DNA of 64,000 nt from positions 1 to 64,000 of the forward strand of contig JAKQEQ010000076.1 in NCBI GenBank assembly GCA_029556545.1. The letters run 5' to 3'. Made by a program: the position numbers and the translations under genes. Within the stretch, counting starts at the first letter, position 1. The number at the start of each line of letters is the position of its first letter. Below the pieces are notes generated by a model. It ran no database searches. It saw only the letters and a program-made list of their open reading frames with translations, and was not told the DNA's origin. The DNA is from Candidatus Hydrogenedentota bacterium (GTDB lineage Bacteria; Hydrogenedentota; Hydrogenedentia; Hydrogenedentales; JAGMZX01). This document shows positions 5,272 through 42,942 of the stretch, one piece after another.

Positions 5272-5456
5272 CGCCTTTGGACTGCGGCAGCTTGCCGCCG
5301 CTTTCTCTTGGCGGCTGTTGGTTATTCCAGGAAAAGCGCAAGCAAGCTCGCGCAGTCCAGAGTCGTGCCTCAGCAAACAATTCACGGCGCTGCTTGCCGT
5401 ATCCGCCAAATGGCGGTATAATAGGCGCAGTTTGGCACTATATAAAGAAAGGCGCG

Positions 5457-6495: not shown

Positions 6496-7254
6496 TCACG
6501 GTTTCCGCCAGACGCCCATGAGGTAGGTGGTGGTCGCGCGAAGGCCGGGCAGGCGGACCTGCGCGCGTTCGAGGGCGCGGACGGCCTTCGCCAGCGGTGC
6601 GTTGAAAATGAAGAAGGTCCACATGCCGGGCAGCCACGCGAAACGTTCCTCGACGAACCCGAGGCCGCCGAGCAGGCGACGCAGCCGCCGCCGCGAGTTC
6701 GCGCGGTAATAGACGCGGAAGGTGTCTTCCTCGTGTACGCCGAACAAGCGCCCCTTGAAAACCTGCTTGAGCCGGAACGGAATGGCCCGCGACAGCACGG
6801 TAAACAGGCTGTTCGCGTTCGGCGTGAGCAGGCAGAGGGCGCCGCCCGGCTTGAGCACGCGCCGGCACTCGGCGAACTCGGTCTCGGGGCGTTCGAGGTG
6901 CTCCGCCACCCACTTGCAGACGATCACGTCCGCGGAGGCGTCCGCGAACGGCAGGCGTTGCATCGGCGCGAGGACGCGCGCGCCGGCCAGGGTATTCCCA
7001 CGCAGCCCCGGCAGGTCCATGTCGACGCCGACCCAGAGCCGCCCGCGGGCGAGCGACGGCAGGTCCGGGTCGCCGCGGCTGCACCCGATGTCGAGGACGA
7101 TGGCCTCGGCGTGCATGCACGCGCCGATGGCCGCGTCGAACGGCCCGTTCACCTCGCGAATCCACTGCTCGATAAGCGCGACCTTGACCGGCCCGAGACG
7201 GCGGCGCAATTCCGCCACATCCAGCGCCAGATTGTCCTTGGAAGGCTGCGTCAT
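6496..7254 (-). CDS. Class I SAM-dependent methyltransferase
   Basis: The protein has 252 aa. The SAM-binding core has motif I as VLDIGCSRGDPDLPSLA (around residue 54), an acidic post-I residue in WVGVDMDLPG, the LPFADASADVIVCKWVAEHL region, and RVLKPGGALCLLTPN. This is the Methyltransf_11 pattern. The C-terminal 80 residues are hydrophobic and basic (MWTFFIFNAPLAKAVRAL), suggesting membrane association, as in enzymes acting on lipid or glycan intermediates. The divergent glycosyltransferase at 7465 fits cell-surface polysaccharide work, but the substrate is unknown. A GAGTAC hexamer array sits in the leader. Confidence 0.8.
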   Translation of the reverse strand: MTQPSKDNLALDVAELRRRLGPVKVALIEQWIREVNGPFDAAIGACMHAEAIVLDIGCSRGDPDLPSLARGRLWVGVDMDLPGLRGNTLAGARVLAPMQRLPFADASADVIVCKWVAEHLERPETEFAECRRVLKPGGALCLLTPNANSLFTVLSRAIPFRLKQVFKGRLFGVHEEDTFRVYYRANSRRRLRRLLGGLGFVEERFAWLPGMWTFFIFNAPLAKAVRALERAQVRLPGLRATTTYLMGVWRKP

Positions 7255-12404: not shown

Positions 12405-13802
12405 ATGAATTCAATGCCCGCGCCACAGGCCAAGACCTCCCCTCCACGACCGCCCGTGCGGTGGCGCAACTCGCTGTACATCCGTGTTGTGCTTCTGTGC
12501 GCGGTGTTGCTTCTGTGCCTGCTCGGGTCCGTGGTTACCATCACGCGCTTCTACTTCGAGGAGGCCGTCACCGAGGTCGAGGCGCAGGCCGCGCGCATCG
12601 CGGACCATGTCAGCGTCGTCTTCGACCAGAACCCGGATATCGACCTCGACATCCTCGAAGAGGAGTCGATACGCTTCAGCGAAGGCGTGGACCTCGAATT
12701 CGAGCCGTACACGGGCAGTCGATTCGGCGGGTCGATAACCCAGGAGCGGGACGCGGACGGGCGTATGGTCCGTGTGGCGCGGATGCCGCTGCCCCTGGGC
12801 GAGCGGCACGTGCTCATGACGTTGCGTGTCCCGGTCGAGCCCGGCGTCGAGGTGCTGCGGGCGCTGCGCAACCGCAACATGCTAGCCCTGCTCGGCGTCT
12901 TCGTGGTCACCTTGGCGTTGATGATCTATTTCATTTACCGGACGCTGCGGCCGCTGAAAGACCTTTCCGATTCGTGCGCCGCCATCTCGGGCGGCGACCT
13001 CCGACCCGTGGGCACGCGCCGTGCCGCCGGCGAAATCCGCGCGCTCGAGAACACGTTTAACGACATGGTCGCGGCGCTTCGCGAGAAGGAACTGGTCGAG
13101 GCCAAGCTGCGCCAGGCGCAGCGCCTCTCCGCGCTGGGCAACCTCGCGGCGGGCGTCGCGCACGACGTCCGCAACCCGCTCAACGCGATCAAGCTGCTTT
13201 CGAGCCATGCCTTGGACACCCTCGATGGCGCGGCCTCGGGTACGGCTGCGCGCGCACTGCAGACCATCCGCAACGAGGTGGGCAGGCTCGAGGAGATTGT
13301 GTCCAGTTTCCTGTCGTTGGCGCGGGAGAGCGAGTTGAACGCCGCGCCGTGCGCGGTGGACGCGCTGCTCGAGGAGTGTGTGCGGCTGATCCAGAAGGAC
13401 GCGGAGGCGCGACGCGTCCGCTTGATCACGGAACTGCGCGGCGGCGACACGACGCTGCTGCTGGACCCGAAACAATGGACGCGGGCGATCCTCAACGTGA
13501 TGCTCAACGCGCTCGAGGCGTGCCCGCCGGAGGGGCGGGTGCGTCTGTTTTCGCGCGTGAGCGGGGACGCCTTCGAGATCGAGATTCGCGACGACGGCCC
13601 CGGTCTCGCGAAGGAGGAGATCGATCGCGTGTTCGAGCCCTATTACAGTACGAAACCCGGCGGCACCGGCCTCGGCCTGTCGCTGACGCGCGGCATTATC
13701 GAGGAACACGGGGGCAGGATCGACCTGTACAGCGTCGAGGGACAGGGCTGTCAGGTCGTCATCAGCATGCCTCTCGAGAAGACCCAGGCCCATGAAAGCT
13801 GA
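12405..13802 (+). CDS. Membrane sensor histidine kinase of the NtrB/ZraS class
   Basis: The layout is a short cytosolic start, TM1 (IRVVLLCAVLLLCLLGSVVT), a periplasmic domain of about 105 aa with several acidic clusters, and TM2 (MLALLGVFVVTLALMIYFIY). A HAMP domain follows (TLRPLKDLSDSCAAISGGDL), then HisKA with the phospho-acceptor near residue 252 in AAGVAHDVRNPLNAIK, and HATPase_c with NVMLNALEA, DDGPG and GGTGLGL boxes. It should phosphorylate the sigma-54 regulator encoded next, which it overlaps by 11 bases. The signal it senses is unknown; the periplasmic domain does not look like the zinc-binding ZraS type. Confidence 0.9.
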   Translation: MNSMPAPQAKTSPPRPPVRWRNSLYIRVVLLCAVLLLCLLGSVVTITRFYFEEAVTEVEAQAARIADHVSVVFDQNPDIDLDILEEESIRFSEGVDLEFEPYTGSRFGGSITQERDADGRMVRVARMPLPLGERHVLMTLRVPVEPGVEVLRALRNRNMLALLGVFVVTLALMIYFIYRTLRPLKDLSDSCAAISGGDLRPVGTRRAAGEIRALENTFNDMVAALREKELVEAKLRQAQRLSALGNLAAGVAHDVRNPLNAIKLLSSHALDTLDGAASGTAARALQTIRNEVGRLEEIVSSFLSLARESELNAAPCAVDALLEECVRLIQKDAEARRVRLITELRGGDTTLLLDPKQWTRAILNVMLNALEACPPEGRVRLFSRVSGDAFEIEIRDDGPGLAKEEIDRVFEPYYSTKPGGTGLGLSLTRGIIEEHGGRIDLYSVEGQGCQVVISMPLEKTQAHES

Positions 13803-15156
13803 CATCATAGTTGCCGAAGACGATCTCGTGCAGCGCGATATCATCGCGGATATTCTCGCGCAGGCGGGGTACGCCGTGCGCGGGGCGGCGTCCGGCCCGG
13901 AAGCCGTCGAGGCCATGAAAGAAGCCCCCAGCGACCTTCTGCTGACCGACCTGAAGATGCCCGGCATGGACGGCCTCGAATTGCTCCGCGCGACGAAACG
14001 GCTTCGGCCCGACACCGAAGTGGTCGTCATGACGGCGCACGCCACGGTGCGGACGGCGGTCGCCGCGATGAAGGAGGGCGCCGTCGATTACTTGCAGAAG
14101 CCCTTCGACAAGGAGGAACTCTTGCTGGTCGTGGCGAACGCCCTCGAACGCGGCGAACTTCGCCGGCAGAACCGCGACCTGCGCCGCCTGGTCGCGGACG
14201 CGACGGCGCTCGGCAACATCGTGGGCGAATGCGAAGCCATGCGCCGGGTCTTCGACCGCATCGAGCGCGCGGTGCGCGTTACGAGCACGGTGCTGATCCT
14301 CGGCGAATCGGGCACGGGCAAGGAACTCGTGGCGCGGCATCTTCACTTCGCGGGCCCGCGCCGCAAAGCGCCCTTCGTCGTCGTCAATTGCGCGGCGGTC
14401 CCGGACAACCTCGTCGAGTCCGAATTGTTCGGCCATGAGAAGGGCGCCTTCACCGGCGCGGACGCCGCGCGCGCGGGCAAGTTCGAAGCCGCCGACGGCG
14501 GCACGCTCTTTCTGGACGAGATCGGCGACATGCACTTTTCGAGCCAGGCGAAGCTTCTCCGCGTGCTTCAGGACGGCTGCGTCGAGCGCGTCGGCGCGAC
14601 CCAGACGCGCCAGGTCGACGTGCGCGTCATCGTGGCGACCAACTGCGACCTCAAGAAGCGCGTCGAGGAAGGCGCGTTCCGCGAGGACCTCTACTTCCGC
14701 CTGGACGTGTTGACCATCGAGCTGCCGCCGCTGCGCGAACGCATCGAGGACCTCCCGCTGCTCGTGGCCCACTTGCGCGAGAAGCTCGGCAGGAAGCTGG
14801 GATTGAAAGCGCCGCCCCCCATCGACCCGGGGCTCCTCGAGGCGTTCCGCCGCTACCGCTGGCCCGGCAACGTTCGCGAACTCGAACACACCCTTGAAGA
14901 GTTGTTCATCCTCTCGGACGGCGGCCCGATAACCGCGGGGCATTTGCCGGCGAAATTCCACGAGCCGGCTCCGATGCCCTCCGAATGGACACTGCCGCCC
15001 GGCGGCATCGTGATGGAGAACCTCGAACAGGACCTGATCCGCCAGGCGCTCCAACGCTCCGGCGGTCGCATCAAGGAAGCCGCCGAACTGCTCGGCCTCA
15101 GCTATAAGACGCTGCAATACCGCCTGAAGAAGCACGAAATCGACCGGGGCGCGTAA
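13792..15156 (+). CDS. Sigma-54-dependent NtrC-family response regulator
   Basis: The receiver domain has Asp53 in [12 protein letters not shown]. The AAA+ domain has Walker A in [15 protein letters not shown], the sigma-54-contacting GAFTGA loop near 217-222, and Walker [13 protein letters not shown] Fis-type helix-turn-helix closes the protein ([20 protein letters not shown]). At 454 aa it is complete. Phosphorylated dimers oligomerise and remodel RNA polymerase-sigma-54. It forms one operon with the kinase. No sigma-54 promoter was noticed next to these two genes, so the target genes may lie outside the window. Confidence 0.93.
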
Positions 15157-34138: not shown

Positions 34139-35446
34139 TCACATGCCGTAGTCGCGGAGCTTGTAGATGAGATTACGGCGGCTGATACCAAGAAGTGCAG
34201 CCGCTCGCGTCTTGTTGCCGTTAGTCTTCGCGAGCGCCTCCAGAATAGCGCGCCGCTGGATTTCATCCATATCCCCCACGAGCACGCTGCCCGGCCTGGC
34301 CGTGAGGGGAGCCTTCTGGAGCTGAGGCGGGAGGTCGGTCGGCAATATAAGTGAGCCATGTGCGAGGATAGCCGCGCGTTCCATGGCATTCCGCAGCTCC
34401 CGCACGTTGCCCGGCCAGTCATACGCCCGCAGGAGACGTTCCGTGGCCGGGGCCAGGCGCAATTTGCGCTTTTTCAAGAATTGGTCCGCGAGCGGCAAGA
34501 TAGCGTCGGGCCGTTCGCGCAATGGCGGGACCTTGAGGGGGAACACGTTCAGCCGGTAATAGAGGTCCTCTCGAAACCGGCCCTCGCGCACGTCTTCCTC
34601 CAAGTCGCGGTTGGTGGCCGCAATCACGCGGATGTCCGTGCGAATTTCGCTATCACCGCCGACCCTGCGGAAGAGACCTGTTTCCAGCACGTTGAGGAAC
34701 TTGGGCTGAATTGACAACGGAAGATCGCCTATTTCGTCCAGGAACACAGTCCCGCCGTCGGCGATCTCGAATTGTCCTCTATGTTGGGCTTCCGCTCCCG
34801 TGAAGGCCCCTTTGTTGTGCCCGAACAACTCGCTTTCGACCAGATTTTCCGGTAACGTTCCGCAATCCACGCGCAACATGGGCATCGATCTGCGGCTGCT
34901 TCTGTCATGGATAAACCGGGCGATGACTTCCTTGCCCACACCGCTCTCGCCTAATATCAAGACTGTTACATCCGAGTCGGCGACACGGGCAGCTTGTTCC
35001 AGGACGCCGCGCATCGCGGCACTCTCCACGACGAGGTATGCCGGTATGTCCAGTCGCGCGCCTGATTGAGGCGCCAAATCGGAGTAGCCCAAGGCATCAT
35101 CTACTGCGGCAACCAGTTCATCGATATCAACGGGTTTCTCCAGATAGTCCAGCGCCCCAGCTTTGATGGCGGCTACGGCGTCCCGGACATCAATGTAGGC
35201 GGTCAACAAGATTACTGGAAGAGATGGCCATTCCGTCTTGACGCGGTCCAGCACCTCCAATCCGTTCATCCCCGGCATGCGTACATCCAACAGCATAAGG
35301 TTACAATGCGGCGCGGCCTCAATCGCCTCAAGCCCGTCAGCGCATAATACGGTTGCATATCCGGCCGAACGTAACGCCGCGGCCAACAAATCGCGTTGCG
35401 GCCGTTCATCATCCACTACGGCAATGCACGATGAGCCAATGGTCAT
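34139..35446 (-). CDS. Sigma-54-dependent response regulator, ZraR-like
   Basis: The receiver has Asp54 in LMLLDVRMPGMNG. The AAA+ domain shows ILGESGVGKEVIARFIH (Walker A), GHNKGAFTGAEAQ (GAFTGA loop) and VFLDEIGDLPL (Walker B). A Fis-type HTH ends it (NKTRAAALLGISRRNLIYKL). At 435 aa it is complete. Its start overlaps the kinase stop by 4 bases (ATGA). Two near-consensus sigma-54 promoters with an intervening palindrome lie upstream of this operon (38057-38286), so this regulator very probably activates its own operon and the divergent gene. The target assignment is inference. Confidence 0.93.
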   Translation of the reverse strand: MTIGSSCIAVVDDERPQRDLLAAALRSAGYATVLCADGLEAIEAAPHCNLMLLDVRMPGMNGLEVLDRVKTEWPSLPVILLTAYIDVRDAVAAIKAGALDYLEKPVDIDELVAAVDDALGYSDLAPQSGARLDIPAYLVVESAAMRGVLEQAARVADSDVTVLILGESGVGKEVIARFIHDRSSRRSMPMLRVDCGTLPENLVESELFGHNKGAFTGAEAQHRGQFEIADGGTVFLDEIGDLPLSIQPKFLNVLETGLFRRVGGDSEIRTDIRVIAATNRDLEEDVREGRFREDLYYRLNVFPLKVPPLRERPDAILPLADQFLKKRKLRLAPATERLLRAYDWPGNVRELRNAMERAAILAHGSLILPTDLPPQLQKAPLTARPGSVLVGDMDEIQRRAILEALAKTNGNKTRAAALLGISRRNLIYKLRDYGM

Positions 35447-36765
35447 GGTTTCCCCACGATGGAAATACCTTCCAGAATCGCTTCGGTGCCTTGTCCCAGG
35501 CGGGACTCAATGCGCAGCCGCCAGCCATGCGCGACTGCAATCTGGTCCACGATGGACAAACCGAGCCCGGAACCGCCCGAAAACCGCGTGAAATAGGGTT
35601 CCGTAACCCGCGGAAGATCCTCCGCGGCAATACCGCAGCCCGCATCCGATACGCCTAACGAGACCGTCGAATCAACCTGCTTCGTGAAGACGCGAACAGA
35701 CTGGCCCGGCTTCGACGCGCGCAATGCGTTGAGGATCAGGTTCAGCAGCGCGCGCCGCAGAAGGTCTTCGTCCGCTAGAACGCTTAGACCGCAGGGGACG
35801 TACAGCGTACCAACTTCCGCGGCTGAGGAATCCATTTGCAGCAGGGGCAGGAACGACTTGAAGAACGGGTCCAAATGAACGCATACCGGAACGGCTTCCT
35901 GCGGACGGGCCAGCAGGAGAAACGAGTTGATCCCGCCGATAACCCGATCCACCTCATCCACGATGTCTTTGGCCCGGTCTTTGATGGCGCAGCGGTGGTT
36001 TGTGCAGTCTCCTATGGACTGGGCAAGGCCGCGGACTATGCCGAGCGGATTCTTGGTCTCGTGCGCAAGCCCCGCGCCCAAGAGGGCGACTTGCTCCTGA
36101 CGCTGAGCGCGTTCGCGTTCCCGCGCCAGTGCGGCGGCCAGTTCGGCGCGCTTTATCAACAGTATGACCGCCAGTGTGCCCAAGCCTAACGCCAAGGTAA
36201 CGACCCCTGTGGCGATGGCAAGTTGGATCCGATGCCGCTTGATCGCCTGGTGAACCTCCGTCGCGTCCAAAGTCGCGGTCAGAGCGTAGAACCCCTTTGA
36301 GAAGGGAACCCAATCCTCCATGTCTTCTTGACCATGCAACCGTTGCCCGTCGCTGCTATGACCGCATTCCGCCAGCAGGTCCACATGGCTGGCCAACACC
36401 AGCCGGTTGCCTTCCCAGCGAGGCCGTTGCTGCGGCGCGTCGGAGATCTCCTCGCACTGACCTCCCGATGCGAGGGGCATGCCGTCGGGGCCGCGCAATT
36501 CAAGGGCCAGGATGCTCGGATTTCGCGCTAATTCTTCGAAAATGACTTTCAGGCGATCACCGCGATACTGCCCCATGCGACCATGCGCCAGAATGCCCGC
36601 CTTGAGCGCGTCCAGCACGGTCTGGCCTCTTTCCAAGAGCACGATACGGTGTGACCGAACTTCTGAGGCATATGAACTGACCAAAGAATAAATGCTGGCG
36701 GCCGCAATGAAGACGGCCACCAGCGCCAGCCAGAAGATGTTTCGATTACGTTTGCTGATCACCAC
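35443..36765 (-). CDS. Membrane sensor histidine kinase, ZraS-like
   Basis: A GTG at 36765 is chosen as start because it places RNRNIFWLALVAVFIAAASI (TM1) at the N-terminus and leaves the small gene at 36746 intact; the frame is open to 36945. The periplasmic domain (HRIVLLERGQTVLDALKAG ... IFEELARNPSILALELRG) resembles ZraS of enterobacteria, which responds to zinc and envelope stress. TM2 is AIATGVVTLALGLGTLAVIL. The kinase core has His in GAGLAHETKNPLGIVRGL, NLILNALRAS, DAGCGIA and GGSGLGLSIV. It should phosphorylate the regulator encoded next. Confidence 0.9.
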   Translation of the reverse strand: MVISKRNRNIFWLALVAVFIAAASIYSLVSSYASEVRSHRIVLLERGQTVLDALKAGILAHGRMGQYRGDRLKVIFEELARNPSILALELRGPDGMPLASGGQCEEISDAPQQRPRWEGNRLVLASHVDLLAECGHSSDGQRLHGQEDMEDWVPFSKGFYALTATLDATEVHQAIKRHRIQLAIATGVVTLALGLGTLAVILLIKRAELAAALARERERAQRQEQVALLGAGLAHETKNPLGIVRGLAQSIGDCTNHRCAIKDRAKDIVDEVDRVIGGINSFLLLARPQEAVPVCVHLDPFFKSFLPLLQMDSSAAEVGTLYVPCGLSVLADEDLLRRALLNLILNALRASKPGQSVRVFTKQVDSTVSLGVSDAGCGIAAEDLPRVTEPYFTRFSGGSGLGLSIVDQIAVAHGWRLRIESRLGQGTEAILEGISIVGKP

Positions 36766-37153
36766 TCGCTTTGTCCGCGTCCATGTAACCGCGCCGCACA
36801 CCGCATTGCCGGTTTCTTTCGCGGCGCGTCCCAGCGCCCTCATTATGCCAGACGCCGCCGCGGTTTGCCTCCGCGCACGAGCTCCGGGGGATTTGGCGCA
36901 CGCAACGCAAGGCCCGGTTGTCACAAACACCATCATCGTCAACATCGATGTACCTACGGCCGTGGACGACGTCCGGCGGGGCGTCCTGACCTGCTAGGGA
37001 CTTAGCGCCGGGCGGCGTGCCACTCGCATTCGGGCTTGCCGGCACCACCGTCACAGCGCCGAGGATCGCCGTTGCCGCGAGAGACAGCATCGCCATCGCC
37101 GCGGTAGCCGCGCTCAGTTGCTTCACCGTCTTCAGCAATCCAACTCCTCTCAT
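36746..37153 (-). CDS. Small secreted protein with a Ca/metal-type DVDDDGVCDN motif
   Basis: A 135-aa frame begins with a signal peptide (KTVKQLSAATAAMAMLSLAA, then TAILGA). One motif, DVDDDGVCDNR near residue 73, matches the repeat unit of the neighbouring lipoprotein (DEDGDGICDNR). Other Cys residues follow (RCVRQIPRSSC). The 3' end overlaps the kinase start by 20 bases. No strong ribosome site is visible, and part of the frame could be non-coding, so it is a tentative gene. It would be a second metal-binding exported product of the two-component operon. Confidence 0.5.
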   Translation of the reverse strand: MRGVGLLKTVKQLSAATAAMAMLSLAATAILGAVTVVPASPNASGTPPGAKSLAGQDAPPDVVHGRRYIDVDDDGVCDNRALRCVRQIPRSSCAEANRGGVWHNEGAGTRRERNRQCGVRRGYMDADKASGDQQT

Positions 37154-37973: not shown

Positions 37974-38056
37974 TGTTACCGTCCTTTCTCGAACCGGTTT
38001 GAGAGCCAATCCTTCCGGTCCGCGTTTGTTGCCTGTCTCTCGGCGTGCATTAGGGA

Positions 38057-38072
38057 AGCAAGTTCGGTGCCA
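38057..38072 (-). promoter_or_regulatory. Sigma-54 promoter of the metal-binding lipoprotein operon
   Basis: On the minus strand the site reads TGGCACCGAACTTGCT, against the consensus TGGCACG-N4-TTGCW, with one mismatch and exact GG-N10-GC spacing. The predicted start of transcription is near 38046, about 72 bases before the ATG at 37973. It fits the sigma-54 activator encoded at the end of the same operon. Confidence 0.8.
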
Positions 38073-38132
38073 GGTTCTCTGGCGGCTGAGACCTGCGTCT
38101 TATGCAATATTAGCGCAACTGCGAAACAGATC

Positions 38133-38147
38133 ATGCAAAAATTGCAT
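38133..38147. promoter_or_regulatory. Palindromic operator ATGCAA-AAA-TTGCAT between two sigma-54 promoters
   Basis: A perfect 6-bp inverted repeat with a 3-base centre lies 61 bases upstream of the minus-strand promoter and 124 bases upstream of the plus-strand promoter, the right distance for an upstream activating site of an NtrC-type regulator. A related half site (ATGCAA) starts at 38102. Binding by the ZraR-like protein is inferred. Confidence 0.65.
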
Positions 38148-38270
38148 AGCCGCCAGAACAGAAGCGTGATCGGGGTATCGTGCCGTGGCAACACCGTAAC
38201 CATACGTTATTAACTTCGATGGGACAGGCACGCCTCTGATGCGGCCCGGCCGACTAGGCCAACTTGACCA

Positions 38271-38286
38271 TGGAACGGAACTTGCT
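38271..38286 (+). promoter_or_regulatory. Sigma-54 promoter of the divergent secreted-protein gene
   Basis: The site is TGGAACGGAACTTGCT, one mismatch from consensus, with exact GG-N10-GC spacing. The predicted start is near 38296, 25 bases before the ATG at 38321, with AGGAGG between. A partial GGGACAGGCACGCCTCTG repeat lies upstream at 38219-38236. Confidence 0.75.
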
Positions 38287-38320
38287 TCCAGGATTTCGGT
38301 GAACGACAAAACAGGAGGAC

Positions 38321-38716
38321 ATGAATATGAGAAAAATGCTGGCTGGTTTGCTTTTCGCGACGCTTGCGTTGGTGATTGGTGTCGCCTTAGTGAGTACGGG
38401 CGGCTACATATGGGCCGAAGTGGACGCGGAAATTACCGTGTCGCCGCGTACGCTTGTACTCTCGTCCAATTCCACCGCGTGGGTGACGGTTCACACCAAC
38501 CTGCCGTATGGCTCGGTAGAGTTCGCGTCCGTGACACTTGACGGCATCGCTATTGCCTGGTCCAAGTCGGACGCGCAAGGCAACTTTGTCGCCAAGTTTC
38601 AAATAGGCGAGATCAAAGGCATTGCGGCTCCGCCGTCCGTCGAGTTGACCCTCGCGGGAACCCTGAAGGACGGCGAAACGTTCTCCGGCACTGACACCGT
38701 GCCCGTTCTCCCGTAA
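38321..38716 (+). CDS. Secreted or membrane-anchored beta-sandwich protein under sigma-54 control
   Basis: The ATG at 38321 (or 38327) follows an AGGAGG site. An N-terminal hydrophobic segment (MLAGLLFATLALVIGVALVS) is a signal or anchor. The rest is one beta-sandwich-like domain of about 100 aa: ITVSPRTLVLSSNSTAWVTV, HTNLPYGSVEFASVTLDGIA, and GTLKDGETFSGTDTVPVLP. No enzyme motif is visible. The layout recalls small Ig-like periplasmic proteins. It is divergent from the metal-binding lipoprotein, and its own sigma-54 promoter implies joint control by the ZraSR-like pair. Function unknown. Confidence 0.82.
   Translation: MNMRKMLAGLLFATLALVIGVALVSTGGYIWAEVDAEITVSPRTLVLSSNSTAWVTVHTNLPYGSVEFASVTLDGIAIAWSKSDAQGNFVAKFQIGEIKGIAAPPSVELTLAGTLKDGETFSGTDTVPVLP

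Positions 38717-41037: not shown

Positions 41038-42942
<1,905 letters not shown>

Follow-up and report, generated by a model that had tools for sequence, protein, structure and literature searches.

The analysed stretch of DNA (64,000 nucleotides of a Hydrogenedentota genome, below called the window) contains a minus-strand operon with genes for a repeat lipoprotein, a small secreted protein, a sensor histidine kinase and a response regulator, next to a divergently oriented gene for another secreted protein. The respective coordinates are listed in Table 1. All of these genes had been named in the original prediction and all are present. The same holds for the sequence elements in the intergenic region: both sigma-54 promoter motifs lie exactly where they had been placed, each departs by a single base from TGGCACG-N4-TTGCW and has GG-N10-GC spacing, and the perfect inverted repeat is located between them. 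Its core (TGCAA-N3-TTGCA) is separated from the start of the -24 TGG by 74 bp for the minus-strand and by 137 bp for the plus-strand promoter, the latter carrying an A at a -24 position that is strongly conserved among loci. Together with RpoN, which is encoded in the genome, the -24/-12 elements with GG-N10-GC and the upstream operator are what is expected of sigma-54 promoters.

Table 1. Genes, promoters and putative operator sites of the studied locus (positions within the window).
Feature	Position	Strand	Remarks
NtrC-class response regulator, sigma-54 activator	34139..35446	-	Response_reg, Sigma54_activat, HTH_8
Sensor histidine kinase, ZraS-like	35443..36765	-	GTG start near 36765, uncertain
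Small secreted protein	36746..37153	-	single DDDGVCD motif; uncertain start (ATG 37153 or TTG 37138)
Secreted lipoprotein, 258 aa	37197..37973	-	lipobox LSGC; ten DxDGDGxCD-type loops, 18 Cys, 44 Asp
Operon sigma-54 (-24/-12) promoter TGGCACCGAACTTGCT	38057..38072	-	most orthologous loci have a counterpart 5' of the operon
Probable operator site 2 CGCTAATATTGCA	38103..38115	-	right half TTGCA conserved; weaker half-site
Putative regulator operator / upstream activating site 1 ATGCAAAAATTGCAT	38133..38147	strandless	perfect inverted repeat ATGCAA-AAA-TTGCAT
Divergent sigma-54 promoter TGGAACGGAACTTGCT	38271..38286	+	counterparts in G001, G021, G015, 125-138 bp from palindrome
Divergent secreted protein, 131 aa, predicted Ig-like beta sandwich	38321..38716	+	orthologues at matching position

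The regulator is an NtrC-class sigma-54 activator by its Pfam domains, its Walker motifs and an intact GAFTGA; we also find DVRMPG, GESGVGKE, LDEIGD and the recognition helix GISRRNLIYKLR. That is, the operon does encode an activator for its own class of promoter, as had been proposed. Among NCBIfam models, AtoC scores best (431 bits), followed by NtrC and ZraR (367 bits; equivalog cut-off 760), all of them below their cut-offs. The kinase shows the Pfam domains HATPase_c (3.8e-21) and HisKA, and its best NCBIfam model is ZraS with 161 bits, under the equivalog cut-off of 479. Matches of the ZraS model to the sensor domains are weak, i.e., they are seen in 16/22 orthologues with a best E-value of 9.6e-6 and 0.011 for the window's own copy. 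A fold search with the sensor domain likewise returned weak matches alone, including the sensor domains of KinD, WalK and CusS as well as Roadblock proteins. The earlier label "ZraS/ZraR-like" is thus appropriate as a resemblance but not as a family assignment, since both proteins score far under the equivalog cut-offs and no ZraP-type (PF13801) protein is found in the window genome by a search that detected the E. coli control.

In many orthologous kinases (several loci among L036-L057), the sensor domain is interrupted by a GPGxGRGRG-like, Gly/Arg-rich insertion; secreted proteins of these operons have similar Gly/Arg-rich tails. The window holds a second pair of histidine kinase (12405-13802) and NtrC-class regulator (13792-15156) on the plus strand (12405-15156), the latter with 49% identity to the regulator studied here, as well as a large plus-strand ORF (41068-42942) that is thiC-like (thiamine biosynthesis) as judged by sequence alone.

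The secreted proteins of the operon, including the lipoprotein, match no Pfam or NCBIfam family above cut-off. Counterparts of the small protein with a DGxCD motif are located between lipoprotein and kinase in L032-L035. For the divergent protein, orthologues show 84% (G001) and 73% (G021) identity; its AlphaFold2 model has a pLDDT of 84.6, and Foldseek matches to Ig-like domains, CopC among them, are weak.

We then considered how many such motifs are expected by chance. When up to one mismatch to TGGCACNNNNNTTGCW is allowed, 1.44 sites are expected in the 64-kb window and two or more were obtained in 43/100 shuffles; genome-wide, a reversed control pattern is even more common than the real promoter pattern (218 vs. 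105). With the window count at chance level and the reversed pattern the commoner one, the promoter motifs alone are no proof, and their significance comes from the comparison across genomes. The palindrome core, on the other hand, is found at only 2 places in the 6.1-Mb genome, one being the intergenic region of the window, while the second copy has no sigma-54 site nearby.

For the comparison, we used regulator orthologues and their surroundings from 26 other genomes of the order. The orthologues show 51-88% identity across the order and are well separated from paralogues (949 vs. 339 bits in the own genome). On the operon side, a common unit emerges: the palindrome starts 73-76 bp 5' of the -24 TGG and a second half-site follows about 30 bp further. 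A palindrome with at most one mismatch at this distance is present in 13/18 testable orthologous loci vs. 0.002 expected from a shuffle test, where the loci share ancestry, so that this is not a tally of independent events. The palindrome-promoter unit is kept down to 52% regulator identity. Per-base conservation is highest at both operator sites and at the -24/-12 boxes and is at background level in between. The resulting operator consensus is TGCAA-N3-TTGCA-YAGTT, and the second peak (TTTTGCA) is 30-31 bp or so away from the corresponding half of site 1, which places the tandem half-sites roughly three helical turns apart. When 68 genomes were searched blind for the composite pattern, 18 hits in 17 genomes were obtained vs. 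2 for the reversed control; 16 of these hits are located 5' of either the operon or a secreted-protein gene of matching type and 2 are apparently due to chance. The nearest regulators from other phyla, none of which exceeds 46% identity, are accompanied neither by DGDGxCD genes nor by a matching promoter-palindrome unit.

Considering individual loci, the palindrome is found 74-76 bp 5' of the -24 TGG in L032, L034-L038, L040, L041, L043 (two copies), L046, L048 and L055-L058; further loci with a distance of 73-76 bp come from G038, G026, G060 and G054. L045 keeps the palindrome at 74 bp next to a degraded promoter. The site is at other distances in L033, L042, L044, L052 and L053, and no clear site is seen in the orthologue-set loci L047, L049, L051 and L054 (L039 is truncated), so that the geometry is not universal. 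Sigma-54 enhancers are generally regarded as tolerant of distance, which is why the near-fixed spacing in the other loci is notable. On the sequence level, the arrangement is conserved across the order beyond what chance can explain.

Two of the loci show rearrangements. In L033 (G055, C398, 1842-2790), some 930 bp separate the palindrome and its second half-site from the operon promoter, and transposase-like ORFs are found in this interval as well as around it. An insertion may have displaced the enhancer, although a search for terminal inverted repeats found none. L043 (G046:C353) contains three copies of TGGCATGGCGGTTGCT, the sigma-54 sites being at 5409, 7077 and 7723 in coordinates oriented by the regulator. 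Those at 7077 and 7723 are each preceded, at 74 bp, by the palindrome and followed by genes for short secreted proteins that closely resemble each other, which suggests a tandem duplication of the output unit.

The genes behind the promoters vary. While the first operon gene of many relatives encodes a homologous DGDGxCD-repeat protein, it is DUF2202-like in G014, G026 and G037 and Gly/Arg-rich in others (e.g., G044, G046). Among relatives, secreted members of the DUF2202 family (MJ0754, PDB 3q4n) are found in place of the output genes or in addition to them. All five DUF2202 matches found in the order are located beside such sites (that of G037 adjoins a degraded promoter), and the window's own genome has none. 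In G015, one DUF2202 gene takes the divergent position and another is found elsewhere, i.e., as a target in trans, each with the same palindrome and promoter, that of the trans target being of consensus type. The regulon had been described as self-contained, which applies to the window genome at the level of exact palindromes but not to the sibling G015 with its one extra target. The divergent position is not fixed either: it holds the Ig-like secreted protein in three genomes and the DUF2202 protein in G015; judged by this gene content, the divergent gene is interchangeable.

From the motifs, the conserved spacing, the gene content, the motifs of regulator and kinase and the presence of RpoN, we consider it highly probable that the locus forms a two-component, sigma-54-dependent, autoregulated circuit of ZraPSR type. 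In this circuit, the membrane kinase would sense an envelope signal and phosphorylate the regulator, which would bind the palindrome as well as the weaker half-site about 30 bp away and contact RNA polymerase with sigma-54 at the operon promoter and probably also at the divergent one. Activation would then drive the whole operon, including kinase and regulator themselves, together with the divergent gene. The recognition of the palindrome by the regulator and the RpoN dependence of both promoters are predicted features, and the outputs would be secreted DGDGxCD-repeat proteins, in relatives also DUF2202 or Gly/Arg-rich proteins.

This reading has to be weighed against others. That we are looking at chance motifs within a GC-rich intergenic region would fit the two promoter counts, which are not above expectation, and the more common reversed pattern; the conservation of both sequence and spacing across the order, however, refutes this explanation, and we give it practically no credence. 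The palindrome could also belong to another regulator, e.g., a repressor, while the adjacent NtrC-class protein acts elsewhere, as several regulator orthologues are without a clear palindrome nearby. But a near-fixed distance to a sigma-54 promoter, tandem half-sites at a spacing of about three helical turns, and a near-unique genomic position adjoining the regulator's own operon all point to the regulator itself, and its recognition helix is near-invariant in the palindrome-carrying loci. We thus regard a different regulator as the owner of the palindrome as very unlikely. A covariation of the recognition helix (SRRN vs. SRRS) with the operator (TGCAA vs. CGCAA in L050/L052) was dropped as a candidate, since the remaining loci with SRRS either carry TGCAA or are without a site.

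The divergent promoter is less widely conserved than the operon-side one. The pair of promoters with the palindrome, which was to be sought in sibling genomes, is found in G001, G021 and G015; that is, it is known from 4 genomes of 2 families when including the window genome. The absence of both promoter motifs or of the palindrome from homologous regions had been named as counter-evidence. The original interpretation withstands this test and is supported by the sibling genomes: the operon-side half recurs across the order, and order-wide conservation is limited to this half. One may therefore suppose that the operon-side promoter alone is functional, the plus-strand motif being incidental and the divergent gene using another sigma factor. 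The A at the conserved -24 position fits this, and so do distant paralogues of the divergent protein that are located elsewhere without a scored sigma-54 site. Nevertheless, all four genomes with the divergent layout (4/4) keep a good -24/-12 element at 125-138 bp from the palindrome, the divergent promoter of G015 precedes the unrelated DUF2202 gene, and the second DUF2202 gene of that genome has a palindrome and promoter of its own. We consider a one-sided arrangement unlikely.

The best reading is an autoregulated ZraPSR-type circuit without ZraP that would respond to envelope stress or metal. It is the resemblance to known systems that suggests metal or envelope sensing. For the secreted acidic, Cys-containing repeat proteins, a role in protecting the envelope or buffering metal ions is an evenly balanced proposal. 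More tentatively, one might see here an order-wide, ZraSR-related envelope-stress circuit in which secreted, metal-binding effectors of a new class, with DGDGxCD repeats, replace ZraP, with the enhancer-promoter distance held at 73-76 bp and output genes freely swapped. For an uncultured phylum, the results provide a sequence-defined candidate regulon with operator and promoter, and predict the secreted proteins that would respond to the signal. ZraPSR-like circuits could be rewired in this way, with output genes being exchanged while the switch itself is conserved.

With regard to known systems, ZraSR two-component genes are already on record for MAGs of the Hydrogenedentota, with a link to resistance against zinc and lead, where the parts of that report available to us describe no promoter, operator or target gene (PMC10866078). 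The NtrC/AtoC class shares with the window regulator the receiver-AAA+-Fis domain order, GAFTGA and the top NCBIfam score (AtoC), and the best PDB match is an NtrC-family regulator; partner genes and operator are different. The closest counterpart is ZraPSR of E. coli and Salmonella, with zraP divergent from zraSR. In Salmonella, ZraR controls the divergent sigma-54 promoters of zraSR and zraP (PMC4987338), and the main binding site of ZraR in E. coli is the spacer separating the two (PMC8249747, PMC7657598). Both systems combine an NtrC-class regulator with a membrane kinase and divergent sigma-54 promoters that share a single intergenic control region (here by sequence and conservation in four genomes). 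They would further be alike in that the circuit regulates itself, that its main output is a secreted accessory protein and that the regulon has close to a single target (PMC4987338, PMC8249747, PMC7657598). Unlike in ZraPSR, kinase and regulator are far from equivalog level, and the accessory proteins are of DGDGxCD-repeat type (in relatives also DUF2202 or Gly/Arg-rich) and encoded first in the kinase operon. Layout and probable logic match those of ZraPSR, while the accessory proteins differ.
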